Assembly (NCBI GenBank): GCA_024742405.1
Contig: JANSYP010000001.1
Location: forward strand, 558,001-622,000
Origin: Paracoccaceae bacterium
Lineage (GTDB): Bacteria > Pseudomonadota > Alphaproteobacteria > Rhodobacterales > Rhodobacteraceae
DNA length: 64,000 nt
Direction of reading: 5' to 3'
Each line of letters starts with the position of its first letter. The stretch's first letter is position 1. Below the pieces are notes generated by a model that was not told the origin of the DNA, did no database searches, and worked only from the letters and a program-made list of their open reading frames with translations. Both the position numbers and the translations under genes were made by a program. Of the stretch, positions 49,810 through 64,000 are shown one piece after another.

Positions 49810-50760
49810 TCAGTCGATGATTTCAGCCGACCGGGCCGCGGCGATGTAGCCTTCGGCCTTTTCCGCCATGAAAGCATCCATGTCCGGGCCGTAGCCGACA
49901 TCGACAAGGGCGAAGCCGCCATCGATCATCTGCTGCTGGAAGGCCGCGTCCGCATTGATCGTCGCGATGGCATCTGCCACCTGCTGGCGGACCTCTTCGC
50001 TCGCGCTGTTGGGCACCGCGACGCCGCGGTAAGCACCCGAGACCATGTCGAAGCCCAGCTCCTTGAAGGTCGGCACGTCCGGGAAGGCCGGGTGACGCTC
50101 TTCCATGGCGACGGCCAGCATCCGGACAGCGTCGCCTTGCGCCGCACCGACGGTGGTGTAGCCCCATTCGGCGGTCACCTGATTGCCTAGCAGCGCGGTC
50201 ACAGCGGCCCCTGTGCCCTTGAAGGCGACATAGGTCGTCTCGATATCGGCCAGATCGTCGAACTGAACCTGGGCGAGGTGGTTCGCGGTCCCCTTGCCGG
50301 AGCCCGAAAAGATCACCTGGCGGGGGTTTTCCTTGGCGAAGTCGATGAGGTCCTGCAGCGTCTGGAAATCACTGTCGGCCTTCACCACGATCGCGTCGGG
50401 TGTGTAGTGAAACCAGTAGACGGCGGCGATGTCTTCCGTCGTGAAACCGACATCGCCCTGTTCTGGCTTGATCACGATATGAGGCAGGTTGATCCCCATG
50501 ATCTTGGTGCCGTCATCGGCCAGACCGTTCAGCTGGGACCAGCCGACCGCTCCGCCGCCGCCGGGCTGGTAGGAGACAACCAGTTGCTCACCGAAGAGAT
50601 CCTGGAAAAACGGCTGCTGAAAGCGGGCGGTGATGTCGGATTCTCCGCCCGGGCCGAACGGGATGATGTAGTCGACGCTTCCCGGCGGGAAGTCATTGGC
50701 CGATGCGCTGCCGGCCAACGCCGCCAGCGCCGCTGCAAGGATGGTCTTTCTAATGGTCAT
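49810..50760 (-). CDS. tctC: Tripartite tricarboxylate transporter solute-binding protein, TctC family
   Basis: 316 residues with a signal peptide (cleavage near GSASAND). BugT/TctC features are VDYIIPFGPGGESDITAR, VVSYQPGGGGAVGW and FKGTGAAVTALLGNQVTAEWGY, the usual carboxylate-cradling loops. It lies between the comC-type gene and the fused permease. The genetic context makes sulfolactate its most likely ligand, though TctC ligands cannot be read from sequence. Confidence 0.9.
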   Translation of the reverse strand: MTIRKTILAAALAALAGSASANDFPPGSVDYIIPFGPGGESDITARFQQPFFQDLFGEQLVVSYQPGGGGAVGWSQLNGLADDGTKIMGINLPHIVIKPEQGDVGFTTEDIAAVYWFHYTPDAIVVKADSDFQTLQDLIDFAKENPRQVIFSGSGKGTANHLAQVQFDDLADIETTYVAFKGTGAAVTALLGNQVTAEWGYTTVGAAQGDAVRMLAVAMEERHPAFPDVPTFKELGFDMVSGAYRGVAVPNSASEEVRQQVADAIATINADAAFQQQMIDGGFALVDVGYGPDMDAFMAEKAEGYIAAARSAEIID

Positions 50761-50839
50761 GTCAGTTTCCTCCTCATGTTGGGTCTTGTGTGGCAGCCGG
50801 CCTCTTTAGGACCTTTGGCCTGCCGTCGTCGTGTGTGTG

Positions 50840-51841
50840 TCAGCTGCGTGTCGCGGCCTCGATCTCTTCCATCAACCGGGCCGGAACGGCGACGCCCTCG
50901 GACTGCGCCTTGGCCCGCGCTGCGATCCGGCGGGTGCCCGGCAGACGTGCGCCGCTCTGCGCCTCGATCTCACCAATCAACGCCTCAAGGCGCAATCCGA
51001 AATCCGTGCTTCCGCCGCGTGCCGGATCAATGGCGATCAGGGTCTGGCCGACCTGTGGCGCCGGCCCGTCGCCGTCAAAGAAGGACGAGGCCTCGTAGCT
51101 GTAGTTCGCGCCCGTCAGGGAGGCAGCCAGAATCTCGACCATGAGCGCGAGCGCCGCGCCCTTGGCGTCGCCCATCGGGATCATCATGCCGCCGAGCGCG
51201 GCTTTCGCGTCGGTGGTCGGCTGCCCGTCATGGTCCAGGGCCCAGCCCTCGGGAATGGGCTCGCCGCGCTTGGACGCCGCCATGATCTTGCCGCGGGCCG
51301 CGCGAGACAGCGACAGGTCGATGACCAGCGGATCGTTCTGCCGCGGGGCCGCGAAGGCGATCGGGTTTGTCCCGAAAAGCGCCTTGTTGCCGCCCCAGGG
51401 CGCCATGGCCGCGGGGGTGTTGGCCAGCATCAGTGCGATCAGACCTTCGCGAGCGATCCGCTCGACATGGGCACCCATCTGGCCGGCATGGTGCGACGCG
51501 GAGATCGCAGCCGCCGCGATGCCGGTTTCGCGGGCGAGGGGCACGAGTTTGTCTATGGCCAGATCGAGTGCGGGATAGGCAAACCCAGTGCCGGCATCGA
51601 CATGGAGCATGGCGGGCCCACGCTGCGTGATGGTCGGTACGGCATGACCGGCGACCTTGCCGGACCGGGCCTGGGCACAGTAGCTCGACACCCGGGCGAA
51701 TCCATGACCGCCCTGACCGTCCACCTCTGCCGCGACCAGCGCGCGGGCGACCGAGGCGGCGTTGTCGTCCGACACCCCGCTGGCGGTTAGAGCGCTCGCG
51801 ACCAGCGCTTTGGCGTCTTCGATCGGAAGGCGAATGTCCAT
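50840..51841 (-). CDS. comC: Ldh2/malate dehydrogenase-family (R)-sulfolactate dehydrogenase
   Basis: 333 residues of the Ldh2/ComC family: EVDGQGGHGFARVSSY near the N-terminus, the catalytic-region SASHHAGQMGAHVERIAREGLIALMLANTPAAMAPWGG, and GDAKGAALALMVEILAASLTGANY. In sulfolactate degraders ComC reduces sulfopyruvate to (R)-sulfolactate with NADPH. The ATG is one base from the slcC stop, so the two are translated together. Other Ldh2 members act on malate, ureidoglycolate or lactate; it is the operon that points to ComC. Confidence 0.85.
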   Translation of the reverse strand: MDIRLPIEDAKALVASALTASGVSDDNAASVARALVAAEVDGQGGHGFARVSSYCAQARSGKVAGHAVPTITQRGPAMLHVDAGTGFAYPALDLAIDKLVPLARETGIAAAAISASHHAGQMGAHVERIAREGLIALMLANTPAAMAPWGGNKALFGTNPIAFAAPRQNDPLVIDLSLSRAARGKIMAASKRGEPIPEGWALDHDGQPTTDAKAALGGMMIPMGDAKGAALALMVEILAASLTGANYSYEASSFFDGDGPAPQVGQTLIAIDPARGGSTDFGLRLEALIGEIEAQSGARLPGTRRIAARAKAQSEGVAVPARLMEEIEAATRS

Positions 51842-51842
51842 A

Positions 51843-52772
51843 TCAGAGATCCTGCAACGCCCGGAGGACGTTTTCCACGGTCATGTGGCTCACGCGGCTG
51901 TTGGCGGGAGCTGTGACGCCCGCGATGTGTGGTGTGAGGATGAGGTTTGAAAGGCCGGCAAACTTGGCACCGGTCTCGGCGCTCAGCGGCTCTTCAGCGA
52001 AGACATCCAGTGCCGCGCCGGCCAGATGGCCCGACCGCAGTGCCGCGGCAACAGCCCCCTCGTCGACGATGCCGCCGCGTGCGGTATTGATCAGTATCGT
52101 GCCGGGTTTCATAGTGGCGATCGCTGCGCCGTCAATCAGGTTCGCGGTTTGCGGTGTCAGCGGGACATGCAAGCTGACGATGTCTGAGCCCGCCAGAAGC
52201 TCGTCAACTGAGCAGCGCTTTGTGTCCGCCCATGCCGGATCGTCGGCCTGTAGGTGCGGATCATGGGCTGCAACGCTCATGCCGAGGTTGCGGGCGAGCC
52301 CGGCCACCGCCCGGGCGATGCCGCCATAGCCGATCAGCCCCAGCCTGCGTCCCGCAATCTCGCCGCCCTGACCGAGCGCGCCTCGGGGCCAGTCCCCGGC
52401 GATCATCTGCGCTGTGGCGCCAAAGGCCCCTCGGGTGAGCGCCATCGCAGCGCCGATCACGTATTCGGCGACCGAGGCCGTGTTCGCGCCGGTGGCGGGA
52501 AAGACCGAGATCCCGCGACTCTCGCAAGCGTCGAGGTTGATATTATCGAGCCCGACCCCAAGCCGTCCGACGACCCTCAGATCCGGGGCGGCGTCCAGAA
52601 GATCGCGGTTCACCTGCGTTCTGTTGCGGACGATGATCGCCGCGGCGGATCCCACCGCGTCAAGGGTCCGGGCCCGGTCATCGACCAGCCCCGGATCGTA
52701 GGTCAGACGGATCTTGGGGCCGAACCGCTCGAGCGCGGCCTCGTCCATGAACTCCGTCACGACCACATGCAC
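51843..52772 (-). CDS. slcC: D-2-hydroxyacid-dehydrogenase-family (S)-sulfolactate dehydrogenase
   Basis: 309 residues from GTG 52772, two bases after the suyB stop. The NAD Rossmann motif is LGLIGYGGIARAVAGLA, and the catalytic residues are Arg in INTARGGIVDEG, Glu in DVFAEEPLS and His in LILTPHIAGVT. It is of 3-phosphoglycerate-dehydrogenase type. SlcC oxidises (S)-sulfolactate to sulfopyruvate with NAD+. Acting with ComC it turns the (S) form into the (R) form, which SuyAB can cleave. Confidence 0.87.
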   Translation of the reverse strand: MHVVVTEFMDEAALERFGPKIRLTYDPGLVDDRARTLDAVGSAAAIIVRNRTQVNRDLLDAAPDLRVVGRLGVGLDNINLDACESRGISVFPATGANTASVAEYVIGAAMALTRGAFGATAQMIAGDWPRGALGQGGEIAGRRLGLIGYGGIARAVAGLARNLGMSVAAHDPHLQADDPAWADTKRCSVDELLAGSDIVSLHVPLTPQTANLIDGAAIATMKPGTILINTARGGIVDEGAVAAALRSGHLAGAALDVFAEEPLSAETGAKFAGLSNLILTPHIAGVTAPANSRVSHMTVENVLRALQDL

Positions 52773-52774
52773 GG

Positions 52775-53956
52775 TCAGGCGGACCGGTAGAGCTTCGTCA
52801 TCGAGAACTCGCGGTGGCCGAGTGCCTCGGCGGCTGTGGCACGTCCGTTCGCGGTGCGCCGGATCATCTCGATCAGGCTGTCGCCGGCCTCGTCGATCGT
52901 CATCTCGCGGGTCAGAACGCCAGTCACGTCGACGTCGATATGCTCTGCCATCGTGCGCAAGGTGCGCGGGTTGCCCGAGATCTTGATCACCGGCACGATC
53001 GGGTTGCCGACCACATTGCCCTGTCCCGTCGGGAAGGTGTGAATGACATAGCCGCCCGCAGCCATCAGCGTCACGCATTCCGCCGCCGCCGAAGAGCTGT
53101 CCATGAAGTAGAGCCCCGGGCCCTTGGATGGTGTTTCCGCAGGTCCCATCGCGTCGATATACTGCGAGGTCCGGCCGATTTTCTCCAGATTGCCGAGGGC
53201 CTTTTCCTCGATCGTCGTCAGACCGCCCAGGATGTTGCCCTTGGTGGGCTGGCTGTCCGAGAGATCGTCGGTCTGGTGGGCAAAGATCACGTCGTCCGAG
53301 TAGGCCTGCCAGATCTGCTTGAACTTGGCTGCGGCCTCCGGGTTTGCGGCGCGCTTTTCGCAGATATGCTCCGCGCCGGTGATCTCCGAGGTCTCGCCGA
53401 AGCAGCCGTAAAGGCCGTGGGGCAGCAGCTTGTCATACATGTTGCCGACGGTCGGGCAGGAGGACAGGCCCGTGGTCGTGTCGCTCTCGCCGCACTTCGT
53501 GGAGACCCACAATTCGGACAGGCCGCAGTCTTCTTTCTGCAGTTCGGTCGCCCAGTGCACGAACTCCTTCGCCTTCCAGCCGGCCCGGCGGATGGTTTCG
53601 AAATCGCCGTTCTGCTCGATCGAGAAGCCCTCGACCGGCTTGCCGGTTTTGGCGATGCCGTCGACGATGATCTTGGTCCATTCCGGCTCGATACCGATCA
53701 CGACGACCGCTGCGACATTGGGGTTCGCCCCGGTGCCGATGATTGTGCGGAAGTGCAGGTCGAGGTCTTCGCCGAACTGCAAGCGGCCATAGGCGTGGGG
53801 CAGGGCCATCGTGCCCTTGACGTTGTTCGCCACCGCCTCGCAGGCGGCATTAGAAATGTCGTCCACAGGCAGGATCAGAACGTGATTGCGAACGCCGACA
53901 CGGCCATTTTCACGGCGCCATGCACGGACGGTTTGGTTCGAGAAATCCAGAGCCAT
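52775..53956 (-). CDS. suyB: (R)-sulfolactate sulfo-lyase large subunit
   Basis: 393 residues from [42 protein letters not shown] (53956). It belongs to the UxaA altronate/galactarate-dehydratase superfamily, with cysteines in [22 protein letters not shown] that probably bind an iron-sulfur cluster. SuyB plus SuyA splits (R)-sulfolactate to pyruvate and sulfite. A plain altronate dehydratase is the alternative, but the neighbours slcC and comC settle it. Nothing for sulfite oxidation or export was seen nearby. Confidence 0.92.
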
Positions 53957-53960
53957 TATC

Positions 53961-54248
53961 TTACCACCGCTTTGTTTTGCAATTGTGGGTGTGGACGTGG
54001 TCGCCGACATTCGCGTCCCCGACCATCTTTCCGATATCCTCGCCGTATTTGATGACCGTGTCGCCGGCCTTCAGCGGCTTCAGAGCGACCTTGTGGCCGA
54101 TCGGAATGTCGGCATTCGCCGTGAGCTTGAAGTCGGAATTGTCGTGGGTCACCACGCCGAGCATTTCGGTTCCTGCTGCCAAATCTTCGACAACGACGAC
54201 GCCGACATTGTCGGTGTGATCGTGCACGAGCAATTGGGGAATAGCCAT
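53961..54248 (-). CDS. suyA: (R)-sulfolactate sulfo-lyase small subunit
   Basis: 95 residues, a SAF-domain protein ([24 protein letters not shown], then [28 protein letters not shown], ending [15 protein letters not shown]). This is the small half that UxaA carries at its N-terminus. The separate suyA-suyB gene order is the usual one for the sulfo-lyase. It is the first gene of the operon; the start is followed upstream by a 135-bp gap holding the palindrome at 54304. Confidence 0.93.
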
Positions 54249-54303
54249 GACCGTGTTCCTTCCCGTATCGGTTCAGGGGGTAGTTTGGTGGCGATGTATC
54301 CGT

Positions 54304-54319
54304 ACTCTTATATAAGAGT
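54304..54319. promoter_or_regulatory. Perfect 16-bp palindrome between suyA and the GntR gene
   Basis: ACTCTTATATAAGAGT is perfectly symmetrical. It lies 56 bp upstream of the suyA start and 65 bp upstream of the GntR start, where it could overlap both promoters. It is the likely operator of the GntR protein. Confidence 0.8.
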
Positions 54320-54383
54320 CAATGTAGCATATTGAGCGGGTAGGGCTCTCCGTGCTAGACAAGCCGAAAGAGGAGTTCTCGCA

Positions 54384-55085
54384 GTGTCCGAGCCCTTGTA
54401 CCGATTTGTTTTCAATAAGATTGTTAGCCGCATTGCCGATGGAACCCATCCGCCGGGCTCCATGCTGCCCAGCGAGATCGACATTGGTCACGAGCTCAAG
54501 GTCAGCCAGGGAACGGCGCGCAAGGCGTTGATCGAACTGGAGCGCAAGGGGATCATCGAACGTCGTCAGGGACGGGGCACCTTCGTCACGCTGCGCACGC
54601 CCGAAAGCTCGCTCTTTCACTTCTTCCGCATGCGCGATGCCGATGGCAATCAGGTCGTGCCCGATCTCCACAGCGAGACCATTGTCCGGCGCAAGTCACG
54701 GGCAGAGGAATCCCGCGCCCTGTATGGCGACCCCGAGGAAGTCTACCAGATTTCCCGGATCAGGAATTTCGAAGGCAAAGCGCTGAGCCACGAAACGATC
54801 ATCGTGTCAGCGAAGCTTTTCCCCGGTTTGCAGGAACGCAGTCCGCTTCCCAATTCCCTCTATGTGCTGTTCCAGCACAGCTATTCCTGCATCATCATTT
54901 CCGCACGTGAAAGACTGAAGGCGTCTATCTTGGGAGAGGAATTGGCCGCCGCCATGAAAAGCGATCCGGCGACGCCGATCATAGAGGCCTTTCGGGAAAG
55001 CCTCGATCTGTTGGATCGGGTGGTCGAGTTGCGGACCAGTCTGATGATCACCGAGAACGTTTTCTATTCGATCACACTGGAATAG
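54384..55085 (+). CDS. GntR-family (HutC/UTRA) regulator of the sulfolactate operon
   Basis: 233 residues, GTG start with AGAGGAG upstream. The N-terminal wHTH reads LYRFVFNKIVSRIADGTHPPGSMLPSEIDIGHELKVSQGTARKALIELERKGIIERRQGRGTFV. The UTRA effector domain follows, ending RTSLMITENVFYSITLE. It is divergent from the suy operon, so by position it is the regulator, probably a repressor released by sulfolactate or sulfopyruvate. A SuyR/SlcR-type role is inference. Confidence 0.9.
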   Translation: MSEPLYRFVFNKIVSRIADGTHPPGSMLPSEIDIGHELKVSQGTARKALIELERKGIIERRQGRGTFVTLRTPESSLFHFFRMRDADGNQVVPDLHSETIVRRKSRAEESRALYGDPEEVYQISRIRNFEGKALSHETIIVSAKLFPGLQERSPLPNSLYVLFQHSYSCIIISARERLKASILGEELAAAMKSDPATPIIEAFRESLDLLDRVVELRTSLMITENVFYSITLE

Positions 55086-55169: not shown

Positions 55170-56669
55170 TCAGGGTGTTCGATGGACGCTGTCTTCGAAG
55201 AGCTTCGTGGCCTCTTCCCAGAACACGCCTTCGGGGGGATGGGGTACCGGACAGGTCACAAGGATCAGGCCCGGCTTTTGCAGGCAGATCCGCAGCAGCG
55301 AGATCATCACACGATCCTCGAATGTCAGGTTGCGTCCGCGTTCAGCGATCCGCAGGTCGAGACCGCCGAGCGACTCGATCGCGCCGTTCAGGCCAGCGGT
55401 TTCCGCGGTGTGGTGGAGTTCCTCGTCCGTGGGCCGGCGCGACAGGCCAAGCGTCAGGGCGCGTCTCAAACTGCCTTTGAGCAGCAGCGGACTGTCCGTG
55501 ACAGTGCCGACCAGGCGCCGTAAGGTGCCGGGCGTCAGCGTGCAGGCATCTTCGCCATTCAGCCTGACCGCGTAGTCTGAGTTTGCAGACGTTCCCGTCA
55601 ACACGGCTGCGACGTCGTCGATCATGGCTTTGGGCAGGACCGCCGCGCCCCCGGGATCCACCCGAATTGCGGGTCCGGTCGGCGGTGCGATTTCGACCGA
55701 CAGGGGGCCTTTCTTAAGCCTGACGTGGCGTTGGCAGCCTTCGGCGGTCGGGCGTTGCAATGCGGCCTTGAGTTTGGAATGCGCCGCCGAAAAGCCCGCG
55801 GCGCGATTGCTCGATGACATGATGTTGCGCAAGGGGCGCGCTGTCAGCGCGAGGGCGGCCAGGGCCGCCGCAACGGTGGCGGCCGGCAGGCCCTCCAGAC
55901 TGCCGATCGCAATGATCAGGCTGGCGGCGATGGCCGTCGACACGTCCGGGATGGCGACAAGCAGTTCGGACACCTGCCGGCGCCGTTGCGCCGCCGCCGC
56001 CACGCGCGTGGCGCTGCGTTCCAACTGGCGCAGTTCGGTCCGACGGCGTCCCAGAGCCGCAAGCCGCGGGGCGATGGGCAAACGCTCAGTCATGTCCGCG
56101 GCGAGGTCTGCGCGCTTCCGGCGCAGGGTTCGATGCGCCTGGAACAGCGTGCCATGGGACAGGATCAGGCACAGCACCGAAGGCACCGTCATACCGAGGC
56201 CGACCCACCCGTAACTCGGGTTGAGATAGACCAGCACAGCCGTTGCCGCCGGCAGCAGGATCGCAGCCTGGACCAGAAGCGGGAGCCCAAGTCCTGGCCA
56301 GTCCTTGAGCGCGGCGAGGTCGCCGGTGAACCGCAGGATGTGAAACCCCTGTCTGCGCCGGTCGAGGTCGGATTGCGCGCTCCGGCTGGCATGTTCGAAA
56401 AGCTTCAGGCGGATATCCTTTGCATAATCCTGGCCGAGCTCTTCGGCGAGACTGCGAAAGCCGAACTGCGTTGCGGCTGCGGACAGCATGGCTACGCAAA
56501 GCACGCTGATCGGACCCGTTGGCAGGTCTGCGCCACTGTGCAGCGCGCCAAAAGCCGCCCGCGTTGCGATCGCCGCCGCCGCCAGCGCCGCCGCCTGCGC
56601 GACCGCCAGGGCGACGAGCGCCGCAAAGAGCGCGCGCCTCCGGCCATCAAAGAGCCCCGGAGGTGTCAT
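55170..56669 (-). CDS. ABC-exporter-like protein with completely degenerate ATPase domain
   Basis: 499 residues with an intact frame. Residues 1 to ~300 form a six-helix exporter domain (RRALFAALVALAVAQAAALAAAAIATRAAFG, then LVAIPDVSTAIAASLIIAIGSLEGLPAATVAAALAALALTARPL). The last ~180 residues align with a nucleotide-binding domain, but all motifs are gone. Walker A reads DPGGAAVLPKAM (~340-349), with no GKS/T; the signature region reads ERGRNLTFEDRVMISLLR in place of LSGGQ; Walker B reads LILVTCPVP without the Asp-Glu pair. ATP hydrolysis is therefore unlikely. The start overlaps the preceding gene by ATGA. Confidence 0.8.
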   Translation of the reverse strand: MTPPGLFDGRRRALFAALVALAVAQAAALAAAAIATRAAFGALHSGADLPTGPISVLCVAMLSAAATQFGFRSLAEELGQDYAKDIRLKLFEHASRSAQSDLDRRRQGFHILRFTGDLAALKDWPGLGLPLLVQAAILLPAATAVLVYLNPSYGWVGLGMTVPSVLCLILSHGTLFQAHRTLRRKRADLAADMTERLPIAPRLAALGRRRTELRQLERSATRVAAAAQRRRQVSELLVAIPDVSTAIAASLIIAIGSLEGLPAATVAAALAALALTARPLRNIMSSSNRAAGFSAAHSKLKAALQRPTAEGCQRHVRLKKGPLSVEIAPPTGPAIRVDPGGAAVLPKAMIDDVAAVLTGTSANSDYAVRLNGEDACTLTPGTLRRLVGTVTDSPLLLKGSLRRALTLGLSRRPTDEELHHTAETAGLNGAIESLGGLDLRIAERGRNLTFEDRVMISLLRICLQKPGLILVTCPVPHPPEGVFWEEATKLFEDSVHRTP

Positions 56670-57712
56670 GCCGCAACGACGACCCGTCGCACCGCGGCGC
56701 GGGCTGCAAGCTGGTTCGCTTCGGCCGGATCGAGGAGCTGCGTGCGGGTCATAACCTTTGTCGCGGTTGCGGCTTCCGCCTCTGAGACCGCCATGGGCGA
56801 GCAGGACAGCTTGCCCGTCAGCGCCATGGGCCGGATGCCGTTGCGGGCCAGTTCCGCGACCCCGCCCGCTGCGGCAAGAGGATCCCCGCAGGCAAACAGG
56901 TAACCCGAGAAACGTCTGCGAACGGTCGGATCGGCCAGAAGTGCTGCCGTCTCACGCTGGAAGATGCCGTCAGCCAGTTCCATCACGGCGATGTTGCAGC
57001 CGCGCGTCTCGGCCTCAGCGAGCAGCGCATCGATCCCGGAGACGATGCGCGGCAACGGCTCGAGATAGGTGGTTGCCATCCCGGCGTCGGTGAAATCGCC
57101 GACATAGCCTGCGCCTGCATCGCAATAGTCGTTATAGTCCCCGAATGCGCCGGTGCCCGTGCCCTTCAGCGCGGCGACCCGCCACCCGGCGGCCGTCAGG
57201 CCATGGGCGAGCGCCGCGGTCGCAGTCGTCTTGCCGGAGTTCATAGACGTGCCCAAGACGCAGATGACCGTCATGTCATCCCGCAGGATGCGGGTCGGCA
57301 GCGCGAAATCGGCCGTGTTCAGAACCCGCCCATCGCGGTCGAGGATGCGGCCCAGGGGCTGGACGCAGGTGGGCGGCTTGATCCGTTCGTTGCGGTGTAT
57401 CATGCGCCCCAGACAGCCGCCTCCGGCCAGCATGTCGCAACCGTTCGGGTCGATCTCGGCCAGGCCCTCGAACTGATCCGGCGCGTAGCGCGCGCCGCAG
57501 GGCAGAGCCACAAGGTCACCCGGGTAGAGCGTCGATGGCCGTCCCGTGGGCAACTGGATGCGCCGGTGGTTTCCGATCGAAACCACCCGGCCGAGGATCA
57601 TGTCCCCGGGCATCGCACTGGCCACGTCACGGTCGAGACCGCTGGCAAGGGTCGGATCGATGCGCCTGGAGGCAAAGCACCATTTCGTGGTTCTGAAATT
57701 CATGCGGGTCAT
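56666..57712 (-). CDS. P-loop protein with DUF1611-like C-terminal domain
   Basis: 348 residues; ATG 57712 with AAGGAG seven bases upstream. Residues 1 to ~150 have no family I recognise and include GDMILGRVVSIGNHRRIQLPTGR, LYPGDLVALPCGARYAPDQFEGLAEI and CDMLAGGGCLGRMIHRN. From ~155 the sequence is a P-loop NTPase: VICVLGTSMNSGKTTATAALAHGL, then VAALKGTGTGAFGDYNDYCDAGAGYVGDFTDAGMATTY and NIAVMELADGIFQRETAALL. This core resembles DUF1611 (DgcN-like) proteins, which phosphorylate or acylate small molecules. It may modify a compound handled by the neighbouring hydrolase. Overlaps both neighbours by 4 bp. Confidence 0.7.
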   Translation of the reverse strand: MTRMNFRTTKWCFASRRIDPTLASGLDRDVASAMPGDMILGRVVSIGNHRRIQLPTGRPSTLYPGDLVALPCGARYAPDQFEGLAEIDPNGCDMLAGGGCLGRMIHRNERIKPPTCVQPLGRILDRDGRVLNTADFALPTRILRDDMTVICVLGTSMNSGKTTATAALAHGLTAAGWRVAALKGTGTGAFGDYNDYCDAGAGYVGDFTDAGMATTYLEPLPRIVSGIDALLAEAETRGCNIAVMELADGIFQRETAALLADPTVRRRFSGYLFACGDPLAAAGGVAELARNGIRPMALTGKLSCSPMAVSEAEAATATKVMTRTQLLDPAEANQLAARAAVRRVVVAA

Positions 57713-58548
57713 TGCTGATCTCCTTTTGAGGGTAAATGGTTGCACACGCGCAGCGTGAGGCCGGCGCCTGCGCAGCCTGCAAAGCTGTGGCCGCAGCCCG
57801 GCAGCTCGGTGATGGAAAGGTCTGGGGTGATGCCGCGCGCCTCGCCCGCCGAACGGAAGGCGTCTGCGAAACTGTGCGCGCGGGCCAGCCTATGGAGGCC
57901 CTGTACGTCGTCGAGTTGCGCGTCCTTGCGCAGGGCGTCGTCTCTGAGCGTGTCGTCCGAGCCGACATAGACCCGCAGGGCCAGGCGCAGATAATCGGGC
58001 AGCTGAGCCTGGGCGAGCGCTGGCACGTCGACCTTCAAGGCCGTGTCGGCAGGGCCAATCCCCACCGGAAAGGGAATGCTCACATCCGGCAGGCAGTACC
58101 ATCCTGCGGCCGCGACGTGCAGCGCGTCGACGCGCTGGGGGTAGAGCATGGCGAACCGATGGGCGAGCTGCGCGCCACCGGAGTAGCCAAAGAGCACGAT
58201 CCGGTTCGTTTCGGCCAACCCCATGTCCTGAACGATGCTCAGCAAGGACAAGAGCGCCTGATCGGGTCGGACGCCTCCGATCCGCTGAAAGTGCGGCCAG
58301 TACCGGTTGGAAAACCTCGGCACGATCAGCGTCTGGCCTCGCGCGGCACAGGGACCGGAGAACTCGCGAGCGATGCCTTTTGCATCCCGTGAAATGCCGT
58401 GCAGGGCGAGCAAAGGGGGCAGCCCGTCGGTGACCATGGTCGGGCGGTGGATTTCGGCATTCAGATGGCGCGTGCCGATCCGGAGCGAAACGAAATGGAC
58501 GCTCATGGCCTGGCATGAGGTCTCTGTGGGGAGTGGCGCGCCGTACAT
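57709..58548 (-). CDS. Alpha/beta hydrolase (esterase-like)
   Basis: 279 residues from ATG 58548, seven bases after GGAG; an internal ATG at 58506 is possible. The fold shows LLALHGISRDAKG (oxyanion hole), LFGYSGGAQLAHRFAM (nucleophile Ser), VGSDDTLRDD (acid) and LPGCGHSFAGC (His). It is cytoplasmic (no signal peptide). It is first in a three-gene coupled operon with the P-loop protein and the degenerate ABC protein. The substrate is unknown. Confidence 0.85.
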   Translation of the reverse strand: MYGAPLPTETSCQAMSVHFVSLRIGTRHLNAEIHRPTMVTDGLPPLLALHGISRDAKGIAREFSGPCAARGQTLIVPRFSNRYWPHFQRIGGVRPDQALLSLLSIVQDMGLAETNRIVLFGYSGGAQLAHRFAMLYPQRVDALHVAAAGWYCLPDVSIPFPVGIGPADTALKVDVPALAQAQLPDYLRLALRVYVGSDDTLRDDALRKDAQLDDVQGLHRLARAHSFADAFRSAGEARGITPDLSITELPGCGHSFAGCAGAGLTLRVCNHLPSKGDQQ

Positions 58549-58689
58549 CTGCAAGCTCCGAGGTCTGGGTTCTGTTGCAGGGAGAACGGGCCAGCAGGCG
58601 CTTCATTCCAATTTGTTTCGAGGCGGCGGAACGGAATAGGCGGCGGCGGTTTTCGTTGTCTCCCCATGCGATTTTCAGAGGAGCCCGAG

Positions 58690-60429
58690 ATGTCCGCCTT
58701 TTCCCTACCCCGCGTGCGTTGGGGTGTTGCCGTTCCAACGCCCTCGGTTCAGCCCATGCTCGTTGCCGGTCTGCTGGCCGGCGTGATCTGGGCGATCTGG
58801 ACCATGCCCGAGACGCTCAGCCTGGAAGGCCGCAAGGTGCTGATCGTGACGCTTGCGGCGATCGTCGGATGGGTCGGTACGCGCCTGTCCGACAGTATCG
58901 TTGCGATCGGCGCCGCCCTGGCGCTCGTGCTGTGGGGCGCGATCCCAGAGGACAGGCTCTTTGCGACCCTCGGCTCCGAACTGGTCTGGCTGTTGCTCGC
59001 GGCCTTTGTCATTGCCGCCATTCTCAAGGAGAGCGGTCTGGTCGCGAGAGTGATGGCCCCCGTTCTGGGGCGGGGTCCTTGTGTGCTTTCGCTCTTTGCC
59101 TTCCTGACACTCGCGATTGCGGGCACGGCGTTCCTGCTGCCGTCCACTTCGGCGCGCGCGGCGCTGATGCTTCCGGTCTATGCAGCATTGCTGCCATTGC
59201 TTCCTGACCCGCGTATCGGGCGCGCACTGGCGCTTTTGTTTCCGTCGGTGATCCTGCTCTCGGCCGGAAGCTCGCTGATTGGGGCCGGCGCCCATGTCGT
59301 TGCGGTCGAGGCGGTGGACGGGGCCACGGGGCTTCGGCTCGGCTATATGGACTGGGTGCTCCTCGGCGCGCCGCTGGGCTTTTTGGCCTCTGCCGTGGCG
59401 GCCGGGTTGATCCTGTGGCTCTTTGTGCCCCGGGCGCTCTGGCGGGCGCGTCTCGGCGCCACCACGCTGTCCTCTGTTCGCGATCCCCGCCAAGGCCGGA
59501 TCCTGAGCGTTCTGATCTGCTTGATCGCGCTCTGGGTGAGCGAGCCATTGCACGGGCTCTCCATCGCGCTCGTCGCGTTGCTCGGTGCGCTGGTCCTTCT
59601 GACGCCGGCCTTTATCGACAAGAGGACCAAGGACGTCTTTCGCGCCGTCGACACCGAACTGCTCGTCTATCTCGCCGCGACCATGCTGATCGCGCAGGCG
59701 ATGACCGCCTCGGGCGCGGACCGGTGGATGGCCGCTGGGGCACTCGAGGTGCTGCCCGAGGCCGTGGCAACCAACGCGACGGGCATCGCCGTTGCCCTGT
59801 CGCTTGTGGCGGTCGGCGCACATCTGGCGATCACCTCGCGGTCGGCCCGGGCTGCCGTGCTGATCCCCGCAGTGGCTCTGCCGGTCGCGGGTCTGGGGCA
59901 CGACGCGGCGCTGACCGTCCTGATCGTCACTATGGGCACGGGGTTTTGCCAGACGATGATGGCCTCGGCCAAACCGGTCGCGATCTACGGCAACCATGAC
60001 GCGGGCGGGTTCACGCAGGCCGACCTCTTTCGTCTCGCGTTCTTTCTGGCCCCGATCAAGATCCTGCTGCTGATCGCATTTGCGTCCTGGATCTGGCCGG
60101 GCCAGCTGAACCAACTGCGAATGTCACCGGAGCCCGTGTTTTCCGCCCATGCCGCAGTCTCCGCGACAGCGTCAGCGACGATCGTGCCCGCCAGTGTGAC
60201 ATCGGAGTCGTCGAGAGCACTTGCGATCTCGCTGCGACCCAGTCCGCGCCCGGAACCAGCCATTGTTCCCGCCCGCGCGCGCGTGTCGGCAAATCCGCGC
60301 GGCCCCGAAAGAGCGACAACACAAAGACCCGCGTTCGAGCAAAAGCTGAGGCAAGCGCAGCGTCAGATCGCCCGCGATTTCAAGGCCGCGCGCACGCAGT
60401 TCCGGCGCGATTTCAAGAAGCTCTTCTGA
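58690..60429 (+). CDS. DASS (SLC13)-type anion transporter with basic C-terminal tail
   Basis: 579 residues; ATG 58690 with GAGGAG upstream. About 12 membrane segments with the DASS/ArsB pattern: FAFLTLAIAGTAFLLPSTSARAALMLPVYAALLPLL and the repeat LVAVGAHLAITSRSARAAVLIPAVALPVA, each with an SxSARA-type substrate loop. It imports a carboxylate or inorganic anion. The last ~100 residues are soluble: a Ser/Ala/Pro-rich linker and a strongly basic amphipathic helix (QRQIARDFKAARTQFRRDF). That extension is not part of the family. It is divergent from the hydrolase operon and upstream of glycerate kinase. Confidence 0.85.
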   Translation: MSAFSLPRVRWGVAVPTPSVQPMLVAGLLAGVIWAIWTMPETLSLEGRKVLIVTLAAIVGWVGTRLSDSIVAIGAALALVLWGAIPEDRLFATLGSELVWLLLAAFVIAAILKESGLVARVMAPVLGRGPCVLSLFAFLTLAIAGTAFLLPSTSARAALMLPVYAALLPLLPDPRIGRALALLFPSVILLSAGSSLIGAGAHVVAVEAVDGATGLRLGYMDWVLLGAPLGFLASAVAAGLILWLFVPRALWRARLGATTLSSVRDPRQGRILSVLICLIALWVSEPLHGLSIALVALLGALVLLTPAFIDKRTKDVFRAVDTELLVYLAATMLIAQAMTASGADRWMAAGALEVLPEAVATNATGIAVALSLVAVGAHLAITSRSARAAVLIPAVALPVAGLGHDAALTVLIVTMGTGFCQTMMASAKPVAIYGNHDAGGFTQADLFRLAFFLAPIKILLLIAFASWIWPGQLNQLRMSPEPVFSAHAAVSATASATIVPASVTSESSRALAISLRPSPRPEPAIVPARARVSANPRGPERATTQRPAFEQKLRQAQRQIARDFKAARTQFRRDFKKLF

Positions 60430-60535
60430 GTCCGCGACACGGACGAAAAGGCGCCGGTGGCGCGCCATTTCGAGGGAATAGCTCGCGGCTTCGGGCGTTC
60501 TCTTCACATCAATCCAGACCGCAAGGAGAGGACCA

Positions 60536-61711
60536 ATGTCCCTGAACATTCTCATCGCCCCGTCCGGTTTCAAGGAATCGCTTTCCGTCGATGCGGTCAT
60601 ACGCGCGATCGGGGACGGGGTTCGGCGCGCCATGCCCGAGGCTCGTATTCTTGCCGCCCCGATGGTCGATGGCGGTGAAGGCACGGTCGAGGCGCTGGTC
60701 CGCTCCACGTCGGGCCGGTTGATCCGCACCCGTGTGACAGGCCCCGTTGGACAACCCGTTGCCAGCTTCTGGGGGCTGTTGGGCGGAGCCGGTCCGCGCA
60801 CGGCCGTGATCGAAATGGCCGCAGCGGCCGGGCTGAGCCTTGTGCCGCGCGAGCAGCGCAACCCGATGCTGACGACAAGCTATGGCGTGGGCGAACTGAT
60901 CCTCGAGGCGCTCGATGCAGGCGCGGAGCGCATCCTGGTAGGTTGCGGCGACAGCGGTATCAATGACGGCGGCGCAGGGCTGGCGCGGGCGCTCGGGGCC
61001 CGGTTGCTGGACGAACACGGGGCCCCGATCGGTCCCGGCGGTGGCGAGCTTGCCTGGCTGCACCGGATCGACATGTCCGGGCTCGATCCGCGGCTGAAAT
61101 CGGTTCAGATCGATGCCGCCGTGAACTGGCACAACCAGCTGCTCGGCCCGCGCGGCGTGGCGCGGGTCTTTGGCCCGCAAAAGGGCGCAACGCCGAGCCA
61201 GGTCGACTATCTTGATGCGGCCCTGGCCCGCTGGGCTCTGGCGATCCGTGCCGAAACCGGGACTGATGTCGCGCGGATGTCCGGCGCCGGGGCGTCAGGC
61301 GGTCTGGGCGCGGGGCTGGCCGCCTTTGCAGGTGCGACGCTGCATCCGCGGTTCGAAATCGTTCTGGAGTATCTGGAGTTCGACCGGCTGCTGGGGCACG
61401 CCGACCTGGTGATCACGGCCGAAGGGTCGCTCGATGGCCAAAGCCCGTTCGGCAAGGTGCCCTGCGAAGTGGGCCGCCGGGCCGAAAGGCGCGGCATTCC
61501 GGCAATTGCGTTGGCCGGGACCATCGGCAAGGGCGCTGGCGAGACGTTCTCCCACGGGATCTCGGCCTTCGCATCGATCCTAAAGCGCCCCTGTTCCCTG
61601 GAAGAGGCTATCGAGAACGGCGAAAAGCTTCTACGCCGGGCTGCCGAGGACGCGGTGCGGATGCTGAGCGTCGGTGTTCGTCTCTCCGCTCGCGGGGCCA
61701 AGGCGGCCTGA
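60536..61711 (+). CDS. glxK: Glycerate kinase (GarK/GlxK family)
   Basis: 391 residues, full length for PF02595. It opens MSLNILIAPSGFKESLSV and contains PMVDGGEGTVEALV, VGCGDSGINDGGAGLARALGARLLD, VFGPQKGATPSQVDYLD, GASGGLGAGLAAF and the late VITAEGSLDGQSPFGK. It phosphorylates D-glycerate, usually to 2-phosphoglycerate, feeding glycolysis from glyoxylate, tartronate or glucarate breakdown. With the DASS gene 106 bp upstream it may serve uptake and use of an organic acid. A terminator follows at 61724. Confidence 0.92.
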   Translation: MSLNILIAPSGFKESLSVDAVIRAIGDGVRRAMPEARILAAPMVDGGEGTVEALVRSTSGRLIRTRVTGPVGQPVASFWGLLGGAGPRTAVIEMAAAAGLSLVPREQRNPMLTTSYGVGELILEALDAGAERILVGCGDSGINDGGAGLARALGARLLDEHGAPIGPGGGELAWLHRIDMSGLDPRLKSVQIDAAVNWHNQLLGPRGVARVFGPQKGATPSQVDYLDAALARWALAIRAETGTDVARMSGAGASGGLGAGLAAFAGATLHPRFEIVLEYLEFDRLLGHADLVITAEGSLDGQSPFGKVPCEVGRRAERRGIPAIALAGTIGKGAGETFSHGISAFASILKRPCSLEEAIENGEKLLRRAAEDAVRMLSVGVRLSARGAKAA

Positions 61712-61836: not shown

Positions 61837-62343
61837 ATGACGGACCGATTTCGACAGGATCTGGTGGCGACAGTGCCAAAGCTGCGCCGGTTTGCCCTGT
61901 CCTTGACCGGGAATGCCGCCGACGCGGACGATCTGGTCCAGTCCGCCTGCGTCAAGGCACTGAAAAACGCGGAACAGTTCCGGGAAGGCACCCGGATGGA
62001 CAGCTGGATGTACCGCATCATTCAGACATTGTGGATCGACGATCGCAGGCGCGCCAAGACGCGCGGCGCCGCCATAGACCCCGAAGACGCCGGTCTGAGC
62101 GACGGCGGCAAGTCCGCCCGCCTGCCCGAAGACCGCATGATGCTCGGGCTCGCGCGAAAGGCGATGGCGACGCTGCCGGAAAAGCAGCGCGCAGCGCTCT
62201 CGCTCGTCGCCATCGAGGGGCTGAGCTACAAGGAAACGGCTCAGGTCCTGGACGTGCCGGTCGGCACCGTCATGAGCCGCCTGGCCAGAGCGCGGGAAGC
62301 GTTGATGCCACAGCTTGGTCTGACGAAAGGAGCCCTGCAATGA
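61837..62343 (+). CDS. RNA polymerase ECF sigma factor
   Basis: 168 residues. Region 2 reads LRRFALSLTGNAADADDLVQSACVKALKN and WMYRIIQTLWIDDRRR; region 4 reads LPEKQRAALSLVAIEGLSYKETAQVLDVPVGTVMSRLARAREAL. GGAGGGG ribosome site. It overlaps its anti-sigma gene by ATGA. The promoter GGAAT/CGTT in front suggests autoregulation or EcfG control. Confidence 0.93.
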   Translation: MTDRFRQDLVATVPKLRRFALSLTGNAADADDLVQSACVKALKNAEQFREGTRMDSWMYRIIQTLWIDDRRRAKTRGAAIDPEDAGLSDGGKSARLPEDRMMLGLARKAMATLPEKQRAALSLVAIEGLSYKETAQVLDVPVGTVMSRLARAREALMPQLGLTKGALQ

Positions 62344-63086
62344 GTTTCGAGACAGTGATGAAAAAGACCCGCCTGGCGGCCTTTGCCGACGGAGAGCTGT
62401 CCCCCGAGGAGGCCGCCGAAGTCGTCATGCATCTTGCCGACCATCCGGAGGATCAAGCCTATGTCGACGCGCTGATGGTGGCCAGCGAGACGCTTGCCGA
62501 GGCATTTTCCGGACCGATGAATGAGCCGGTGCCAAAGGCCATCGAACAGGCCATTCTCGGCAACGGCCCCACCGCGCAGATCGTTCCCTTTCGCCGCCGG
62601 CCCGCGGTATGGGTCGGCACGGCCCTGGCCGCGTCGGTCGCGGCTGCGCTCGTTGCCGTGCCGCTCGCGTTTTCGCCGAATCCGTCCGGTGACGATCTTG
62701 CCGTGGGCTTAGTGAAGCCGGGCTCCTACCTTGCCAGAACGCTCGATACGCTGCCGTCGGGAACGCCGGAAACCGTCGGTGAAGGCAGAGAAGTGATGAT
62801 CCTGGCGACGTTGCCCGTCGACGGCGGATACTGCCGCGAGATCGAGGTGATCGACCAGACCGCGGACCGGATCGACCTGGGGGTCGCCTGCCGGCGGAAC
62901 GCGGGCTGGAATGTCGAGGTGACCCTGTCGGAGCCGTTGTCGGCCACGGGAACCGAAGACGGGTTCGTGGCGGCAAGCGGTGCGGAGGTTCAGGGCCTGC
63001 AACCCTTCCTCGACAGGCTCGGAACAGGGGTCGCTCTGGACCCGGTCAGCGAGGCGGATGCGATTGCGAAAGGCTGGTCCCGCTAG
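62340..63086 (+). CDS. Anti-sigma factor (membrane-anchored, non-zinc type)
   Basis: 248 residues. The N-terminal ~80 form the sigma-binding helices (LAAFADGELSPEEAAEVVMHLADHPEDQAYVDAL), without the HxxxCxxC zinc motif. One membrane helix follows near 97-117 (WVGTALAASVAAALVAVPLAF). The periplasmic ~130 residues are beta-rich, with a Cys pair (GGYCREI, GVACRRN) that could form a disulfide. It should hold the sigma factor inactive until an envelope signal. Coupled to the sigma gene by ATGA. Confidence 0.88.
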   Translation: MSFETVMKKTRLAAFADGELSPEEAAEVVMHLADHPEDQAYVDALMVASETLAEAFSGPMNEPVPKAIEQAILGNGPTAQIVPFRRRPAVWVGTALAASVAAALVAVPLAFSPNPSGDDLAVGLVKPGSYLARTLDTLPSGTPETVGEGREVMILATLPVDGGYCREIEVIDQTADRIDLGVACRRNAGWNVEVTLSEPLSATGTEDGFVAASGAEVQGLQPFLDRLGTGVALDPVSEADAIAKGWSR

Positions 63087-63151: not shown

Positions 63152-63180
63152 GGGCGGCTCTCAGCCGCCCTCGGTCTTTT
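63152..63180. terminator. Hairpin terminator between anti-sigma gene and protease gene
   Basis: GGGCGGCT-CTC-AGCCGCCC, perfect 8-bp stem, followed on the plus strand by TCGGTCTTTT. It overlaps the last codons of the convergent protease gene. Confidence 0.65.
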
Positions 63181-64000
63181 GGGGTCCGCAGAGCCCGCCC
63201 GGCGAGACCAGGCCGTATCCGAAGATTTCATCCTTGCCTTCGGCCCCGAGGTCGCGCGCGCCATTTCTGAGATGCTCGGCCACCTGCTGCACGCTCAGGG
63301 TATCGTCCCGGGACAGAAGGAGCGCCACCGTCGCCGTCACGAAGGGCACGGCAAAGGAGGTTCCGGTCTTCAGGCGGGCCCCGCGGATGGACGTGGCGGC
63401 GAGCATGTTGACCCCCGGGGCGGCCAGATCGATATGCGGCCCGCGTTGCGCCTGCCGGTAGACGCGCGCCCTTGCATCGACGGCGGTCACGGCGATCACT
63501 CCTTCGTAGGCCGCGGGGTAGGCCGGCAGACCTTTTGGTCCGGCATTGCCCGCGGCGGCGACGAGGACGATCTGCTCAGGTCCGACAATCTGCGCGATGG
63601 TTTGGGACAGAAGCACGTTGTCAGGCCCGGCCAGCGACAGCCCGACCACCCTGACATCGGTGCCCGCCAGTAGATCCAGACCGCGCAGCAGCGAAACGAG
63701 ATCGGCCCGTTCGTCTTCGCCCTGCCTGGAAAATGCATCGACGGCAGTCACCTCGGCGTCACTGATCAGCCCCGGCACGCGGGTGTCCTGGCCGCCGATC
63801 AGGAGGGACGCCACGGCGGTGCCGTGAATGGCCTTGGACGGCGGCAGCCGCGTGTCGGCGAGGGGAATGACCTCCAGCTGCGCGTCCTGGACGATCTCAT
63901 GGTCCGCGTTGATGCCGGTGTCGATCAGGCCGACCGCCACTGTGGTTTCGCACTGTCCCAGGGCCTGGCCCTCGCGCGGCCATCCAATCAGTTCCCAGGA
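63161..64000 (-). CDS. Subtilisin-like S8 serine peptidase (N-terminus beyond window)
   Basis: The frame is open to the last base of the window, so the N-terminus lies outside. The visible 279 residues include the catalytic triad of S8 peptidases: Asp in VGLIDTGIN, His in AIHGTAVASLLIGG, the oxyanion Asn in VAAAGNAGP and Ser in KTGTSFAVPFVTATVALLL. The end (DEIFGYGLVSPGG) is the normal C-terminus of the catalytic domain. It converges on an ECF sigma/anti-sigma operon, which may include it functionally if it cleaves the anti-sigma factor, but this is untested. Confidence 0.9.
   Translation of the reverse strand, partial: SWELIGWPREGQALGQCETTVAVGLIDTGINADHEIVQDAQLEVIPLADTRLPPSKAIHGTAVASLLIGGQDTRVPGLISDAEVTAVDAFSRQGEDERADLVSLLRGLDLLAGTDVRVVGLSLAGPDNVLLSQTIAQIVGPEQIVLVAAAGNAGPKGLPAYPAAYEGVIAVTAVDARARVYRQAQRGPHIDLAAPGVNMLAATSIRGARLKTGTSFAVPFVTATVALLLSRDDTLSVQQVAEHLRNGARDLGAEGKDEIFGYGLVSPGGLCGPQKTEGG

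Follow-up and report, generated by a model that had tools for sequence, protein, structure and literature searches.

A conserved cassette of a serine hydrolase, a DUF1611-like P-loop protein and an ABC exporter homologue whose ATP motor is apparently gone in about half of the sampled relatives

A stretch of 64,000 nucleotides from the genome of a Paracoccaceae bacterium (contig JANSYP010000001.1; subsequently designated the window) carries on its minus strand three consecutive genes, which encode a serine hydrolase, a P-loop protein and a homologue of ATP-binding cassette (ABC) exporters lacking the motifs for ATP binding and hydrolysis. These genes form a conserved cassette, and what is apparently new about it is the pairing of a little-known P-loop enzyme with an exporter whose ATP motor was lost in about half of the sampled relatives. 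The three genes are as follows (window coordinates).

57709..58548, minus strand: alpha/beta serine hydrolase of 279 amino acids (aa), related to LpqC and poly(Asp) hydrolase-1
56666..57712, minus strand: P-loop protein of 348 aa with a beta-rich N-terminal domain and a P-loop domain like those of DUF1611 and dethiobiotin synthetase; predicted N-acyltransferase for acidic amino acids
55170..56669, minus strand: ABC-exporter-like protein of 499 aa; transmembrane domain kept; Walker A, signature, Walker B and H-loop missing from a nucleotide-binding domain that is still predicted to fold

A first-pass annotation of this DNA had described three minus-strand genes linked by ATGA overlaps, an ABC homologue of full length and with an intact frame in which the Walker A, signature and Walker B residues are missing, and an intact GTSMNSGKTT loop in the P-loop protein. 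All of this was borne out by reading of the sequence: both junctions are ATGA overlaps (57709-57712 and 56666-56669), and in the ABC protein the H-loop is gone as well. In the alignment its Walker A columns read PK---AMIDDV, the signature NLTFEDRV and Walker B LILVTCPV, while the H-loop is represented by gaps. With Pfam ABC_membrane the protein scores 47.4 bits (cut-off 28); the models matched by its C-terminal half are those for CydC, CydD and type I secretion ATPases, each under its cut-off. Its predicted structure is confident (predicted local distance difference test, pLDDT, 92.8) and is matched by Foldseek to whole exporters with TMq up to 0.82, TM287/288, TmrAB and CydDC among them.

Conservation of the gene order was assessed at 81 loci, i.e. 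the window and the best 80 of at least 573 P-loop relatives in a species collection, which were found with the P-loop family alone. The relatives range from Ruegeria, Paracoccus and Sinorhizobium to Brenneria, Halomonas and metagenome-assembled genomes (MAGs) of Nitrosomonas and Thauera; in the sample of the window's own family, the P-loop protein is encoded in 20 of 295 genomes, the window's own counted. An ABC gene is present at 75 of the 81 loci and absent at five (L071, L074, L098, L099, L120), L125 not being evaluable. P-loop and ABC genes are direct neighbours at 59 or more loci including the window, a lower bound as the gene caller overlooked four of the ABC genes. At 37 loci the hydrolase, P-loop and ABC genes follow one another directly. 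The synteny for which the first-pass annotation had suggested a search is thus conserved, and the three genes are a conserved cassette. A -4 overlap occurs at 24 of 60 same-strand P-loop/ABC junctions, larger overlaps stemming from the choice of the longest open reading frame (ORF) start. Plasmids from Tritonibacter, Sulfitobacter and two Paracoccus species also have the P-loop and ABC genes side by side, and the cassette is probably mobile. No account of it was found in the literature searched; apparently, the cassette is widespread but undescribed.

Three of the loci examined (L059, L092, L093) bear ill-fitting record names ('Enemella evansiae', 'Anaerolineae', 'Phycisphaeraceae') and are probably mislabelled or contaminated; on the P-loop tree, the MAG rows labelled 'Anaerolineae' and 'Phycisphaeraceae' nearly duplicate proteobacterial rows. 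At L048 (G010) the P-loop gene ends after about 170 residues and is followed by IS21-like transposase genes (recognized by eye), and no ABC gene was found there.

Next to the P-loop gene, the ABC partner exists in several states. Among 80 typed partners (71 from the 81 loci and ten from genomes and a plasmid, minus the cut contig L093) 24 are intact, 17 partial and 39 dead. Outside this set are the four ABC genes overlooked by the gene caller, of which L096 is intact, L102 and L104 are partial and L057 is dead. Among further copies typed, L169, which comes from another class of the phylum, is also dead, and L170-L172 and L176-L178 are intact as judged by Walker A and DE. Intact copies possess Walker A and, at Walker B, the residues DE; their signature is mostly LSAGE or LSSGE, and most have a THN-like H-loop; they look like ordinary ATP-driven exporters with an unusual LSAGE-type signature. 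Homologues with intact Walker motifs had been named in the first-pass annotation as the finding that would speak against its reading. They account for 24 of the 80 partners, and consequently ATPase loss is a derived state in part of the family rather than its definition, whereas a selected dead form still stands.

Phylogenetic trees (quick ones, with support from the Shimodaira-Hasegawa-like approximate likelihood ratio test only) indicate that the dead state arose repeatedly: it needs seven changes on the P-loop tree, at least four of them forced by well supported branches, and six on the transmembrane-domain tree, at least five of them forced. In the latter tree the two large dead clades are sisters, albeit with weak support (80), so that a single loss of the catalytic Glu at their base may have been followed by several losses of Walker A. 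Near the coupling helix, Ser126 and Ala130 are present in 24/24 intact copies, whereas Gly is found at the former position in 33 and Pro at the latter in 34 of the 39 dead copies; if the dead clades are sisters, S126G and A130P may represent one event and not convergence. Three copies (L070, L039, L119) have retained Walker A but not the catalytic Glu and are placed among or beside dead copies, from which it seems that loss of the Glu precedes the other motif losses.

All 39 dead copies have open frames of at least 496 codons. The ratio of nonsynonymous to synonymous substitution rates (dN/dS) was calculated for 12 pairs of dead copies, 11 of them computable per domain, and yielded 0.05-0.37 for the nucleotide-binding and 0.07-0.20 for the transmembrane domain; nine intact pairs gave 0.07-0.19 and 0.04-0.11, respectively. 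These pairs are not independent, as species are shared, and several are near silent-site saturation. The degenerate domain, whose dN/dS had been recommended for checking, is hence under purifying selection in the dead relatives in 11 of 12 pairs, with one not computable. Intact and dead copies have in common the stretch GS(L)RR and residues such as E76, R87, R113, D117, E195 and R196; in exporters, such places lie at the meeting point of the two domains. Open frame, confident predicted fold and purifying selection uphold the earlier proposal of a selected ABC protein without ATPase role, for which that annotation had suggested a part as channel, receptor or chaperone. Judged by its motifs, the ATP motor was lost in about half of the sampled relatives, while the protein was kept by selection.

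The P-loop is intact in the relatives aligned: its Lys and Thr are invariant in 40/40 proteins, across every state of the ABC partner. The window protein reaches 24.2 bits with Pfam DUF1611, just below the cut-off of 25. In its model (pLDDT 94) a beta-rich domain at the N-terminus precedes the P-loop domain, for which the DUF1611 protein 2g0t is the best structure match (Z 16.8, 3.0 Å over 173 residues); CTP synthase and dethiobiotin synthetase tie with 2g0t at Z 16.1, and the fold match is not exclusive to DUF1611. The N-terminal domain is a family trait shared by the small-genome relatives; its fold could not be placed in whole-protein searches, in which the P-loop domain filled the match lists, the domain not having been folded alone. 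The DUF1611 protein DgcN reportedly is a D-glutamate N-acetyltransferase. According to PMC12363236, a pathway that racemizes acidic D-amino acids has dgcN as its key gene. The cassette protein resembles DUF1611/DgcN in the related fold of the P-loop domain and in its predicted acidic-amino-acid substrate, but has a different N-terminal domain and scores under the Pfam cut-off. Membership in DgcN was rejected, since the NCBIfam DgcN model gave no match to the window protein at E<=1 and the profile comparison between the two families was not significant. Annotations of the P-loop family in the plasmid records examined vary from hypothetical protein and DUF1611 to dethiobiotin synthase and, surprisingly, transposase. 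A 20%-identical relative on a Priestia megaterium plasmid (L031) clusters with genes for ATP-grasp and thiamine pyrophosphate enzymes, an M20 peptidase and a phosphoenolpyruvate-mutase-family protein, and this cluster looks biosynthetic.

A clue to function is provided by distant full-length relatives, which match the family profile (hhalign 99.9%, E 1.3e-35 over 296 columns). In six genomes, which represent three families (G323, G550, G627, G610, G529, G910; loci L159, L160, L161, L162, L163, L168), the P-loop gene lies beside argC/argB-like genes; 1.4 Mb and 31% GC were noted at G323, G550 and G627, which we take to be SAR11-like. ArgC exceeds its cut-off in L159 and L162, and ArgB in L162 only, being below it in L159. 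L168 encodes Pfam domains of ArgC, amino acid kinase and ArgR, whereas in L160, L161 and L163 argC and an aminotransferase gene were read from sequence starts and the kinase from a separate match. ArgJ, full-length ArgA and LysW are absent in all six genomes, where ArgA matches span the kinase domain only. ArgJ was present in each of the other 17 of the 23 P-loop-bearing genomes tested, the P-loop neighbourhood being viewed in all of these 17 but G519, G530 and G585. This gene context, together with the activity ascribed to DgcN, leads us to predict that the P-loop family comprises N-acyltransferases for acidic amino acids, which would fit the DUF1611-like fold. By the same sequence evidence the arg-type relatives are candidates for a new N-acetylglutamate synthase (NAGS). 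Known types are ArgA, ArgJ, S-NAGS, ArgO/O-NAGS, H-NAGS and C-NAGS (PMC4490483, in whose main text the term 'P-loop' is absent) and one further type (PMC7311316); our literature search recognised no P-loop-type NAGS. The arg-type relatives fill the same slot in the gene set as these enzymes, but the window's P-loop protein is not beside arg genes. Moreover, the window genome possesses ArgJ and elsewhere a true DgcN, and the cassette enzyme therefore probably serves a task other than arginine synthesis. Further P-loop relatives adjoin M20 peptidases (L166, L167) or a beta-aspartyl-peptidase-like gene (L165, under cut-off).

When the hydrolase profile was compared with the PDB, LpqC and poly(Asp) hydrolase-1 were retrieved at 5e-32 to 2e-28, LpqC scoring slightly higher, and the next best match at 5e-5. 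Ser123, Asp199 and His254 are invariant in 31/31 aligned sequences and probably constitute the catalytic triad. Poly(Asp) hydrolase-1/LpqC, as represented in PMC4456602 and grouped here with PHB-depolymerase kin, is thus a homologous hydrolase with Ser, Asp and His kept, the likeness of the cassette hydrolase being at the family level only. The first-pass annotation had imagined that the P-loop enzyme modifies a small acid and the hydrolase removes a group, for which the arg-operon relatives and the kinship with poly(Asp) hydrolase-1 offer indirect support.

Genes accompanying the cassette were named by Pfam for representatives. Anywhere in the locus, a hydrolase was found in 49 of the 81 cases, a histidine kinase in 45, a response regulator in 41, an S8 subtilase in 26, an anti-sigma factor in 25, and an extracytoplasmic function (ECF) sigma factor and an Asp/Asn beta-hydroxylase in 23 each. 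The cassette tends to accompany a two-component pair or an ECF sigma module, sometimes both, and these may control it. In the window the sigma module consists of the following genes.

61837..62343, plus strand: ECF sigma factor; neighbouring module, often but not always alongside the cassette
62340..63086, plus strand: anti-sigma factor (zf-HC2) of the same module
63161..64000, minus strand: S8 subtilase of the ECF sigma module, continuing beyond the window end; complete as L131:3162-4670, 502 aa

The subtilase carries a poly-Asp run behind a signal-like segment (by eye). Of 106 loci, with some organisms counted twice, 38 contain ORFs rich in Asp, defined by 13 or more Asp within 30 residues; they chiefly encode the subtilase and an EF-hand protein, and some may be due to chance. 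With the kinship of the hydrolase to poly(Asp) hydrolase-1 and the recurring Asp/Asn beta-hydroxylase they make up an acidic theme around the cassette. The window is not among the 38 because the poly-Asp run of its subtilase falls just past the window end. Close subtilase kin (E<=1e-60, a threshold picked after viewing the list) are encoded in 14 of the 295 genomes, five of which are among the 20 with the P-loop protein (Fisher p 0.0012); at the search's own 1e-40 there are 25 genomes, eight of them with the P-loop protein. Initially considered as cassette parts, the poly-Asp subtilase and sigma genes were demoted, since they are also found without the cassette; the module is a frequent companion but not a part.

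As an overall reading we tentatively propose that the cassette handles an acidic amino acid or peptide by acylation, trimming and transport, the last through a nucleotide-independent carrier in the window's clade. With acyl-CoA as donor, the P-loop protein would cap the amino group of this substrate, which would be of the Glu or Asp type, the serine hydrolase would take off or trim a group on the same substrate, and the ABC-type protein would carry substrate or product across the inner membrane. Transport would be ATP-driven in the intact lineages. In the window's clade the ATP-binding and -hydrolysing residues are lost, but the transmembrane domain persists, as do certain conserved loops of the nucleotide-binding domain; there the protein would probably work as a secondary or facilitated carrier. 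Cassette conservation, recurrent motif loss, purifying selection, predicted folds and the arginine-gene context of the relatives were computed; what we infer beyond this is N-acylation, the acidic nature of the substrate, and the direction and energy source of transport. The window's ABC protein is akin to type IV ABC exporters (CydDC, TmrAB, MsbA) in its whole-length predicted fold and its ABC_membrane domain, but its clade lacks their ATP-binding and hydrolysing motifs. SbmA-like peptide transporters have the transmembrane fold of ABC exporters and work without ATP (PMC13316013), and are a precedent for ATP-free transport by this fold. Unlike these, the window protein, a putative carrier, keeps a degenerate nucleotide-binding domain, which is predicted to fold.

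Several observations weigh against this proposal. The ABC gene is dispensable, as it is absent in five loci. Constraint on the dead copies is somewhat relaxed, yet far below neutrality, mean dN/dS being about 1.5-fold that of intact copies in both domains (0.17 versus 0.11 in the nucleotide-binding and 0.10 versus 0.07 in the transmembrane domain). None of the acyltransferase models matches the window's P-loop protein at E<=1, comparison of the family with DgcN gave 2.2% over the Walker A stretch only, and the acyltransferase assignment is a prediction from context and fold. ArgJ is present in the window genome, and a short GNAT-type or C-type NAGS may be encoded elsewhere in the six arg-type genomes, where the search covered ArgJ, ArgA and LysW. 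Finally, at seven loci from genomes without a P-loop match the subtilase-sigma module stands alone, which makes the poly-Asp clue to an acidic substrate a weak one.

Alternatively, the P-loop protein might be an ATP-dependent ligase or kinase, with the arg-type relatives protecting glutamate by other chemistry. The ties of its fold with CTP synthase and dethiobiotin synthetase, both ATP-using, speak for this option. However, models for ArgB and the ArgA kinase fit the adjacent kinase better by score than LysW-type models do, LysW is absent in 6/6 genomes, and ArgC in L159 and L162 is above the cut-off for N-acetyl-gamma-glutamyl-phosphate reductase; we regard this alternative as doubtful. Another explanation would pair the dead ABC protein with an intact half, encoded elsewhere, that hydrolyses ATP in a heterodimeric exporter; this appears unlikely. 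Heterodimeric exporters with one degenerate site do exist, and the Foldseek matches include TM287/288, TmrAB and CydDC, but degenerate halves usually help to build one working composite site, whereas the nucleotide-binding and signature elements are all gone in the window protein. In addition, no second ABC gene lies beside the window cassette, and the next best match in the genome is generic (29%, E 5.6e-11). We likewise consider it improbable that the ABC gene is in slow decay, leaving the P-loop enzyme and hydrolase as the working parts. The graded series of states, the absence of the gene in 5/80 evaluable loci and the somewhat faster evolution of dead copies would agree with a transporter being lost; on the other hand, the open frames of the 39 dead copies, dN/dS well below 1, the confident predicted fold of the window copy and retention of dead copies beside the P-loop gene in many genera argue for its maintenance. 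Random decay as the whole story of the ABC gene is rejected by the open frames, dN/dS and predicted fold.

Within the acylation and transport proposal, a more specific variant is vectorial acylation, which we put forward as a long shot. Here, the dead exporter fold would import, or merely allow through, the acidic amino acid or peptide and the co-translated P-loop acyltransferase would trap it by N-acylation, so that the energy of acyl-CoA would be the driving force in place of ATP hydrolysis. Such a mechanism would explain the repeated loss of the exporter motor beside an intact P-loop in the aligned relatives. If the overall proposal is true, the family offers a natural series from intact over partial and dead to absent for a primary transporter that loses its motor while the partner enzyme is kept. 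It would also provide a candidate enzyme for the first step of arginine synthesis where small-genome alphaproteobacteria lack one, and suggest a function for a P-loop family whose relatives number 573 or more in the species collection.

Some further neighbours were observed. In the window, a DASS-type symporter (under cut-off) and a glycerate kinase adjoin the cassette (58666-61711), each being found in 7 of the 81 loci. On the other side (49810-55085) lie genes for a GntR regulator, an altronate/galactarate dehydratase-type enzyme, a sulfolactate-dehydrogenase-like enzyme (under cut-off) and a TctC-like receptor (by eye), an acid-utilisation cluster, perhaps for sulfolactate. Elsewhere, VTC (polyphosphate polymerase-like) and DUF4956 genes lie near the cassette in L037, L107, L110, L122, L129 and L130, confirmed by Pfam in L130 and named by similarity or eye in the others. 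The gene just upstream of the P-loop gene encodes a poly-Asp-tailed EF-hand protein at several of these loci or their relatives. HTTM and DUF393 genes are found beside EF-hand poly-Asp proteins in L025, where they are annotated, and in L223, where look-alikes were recognized by eye; in the record of L025, HTTM bears the tag peptidyl-glutamic acid carboxylation.

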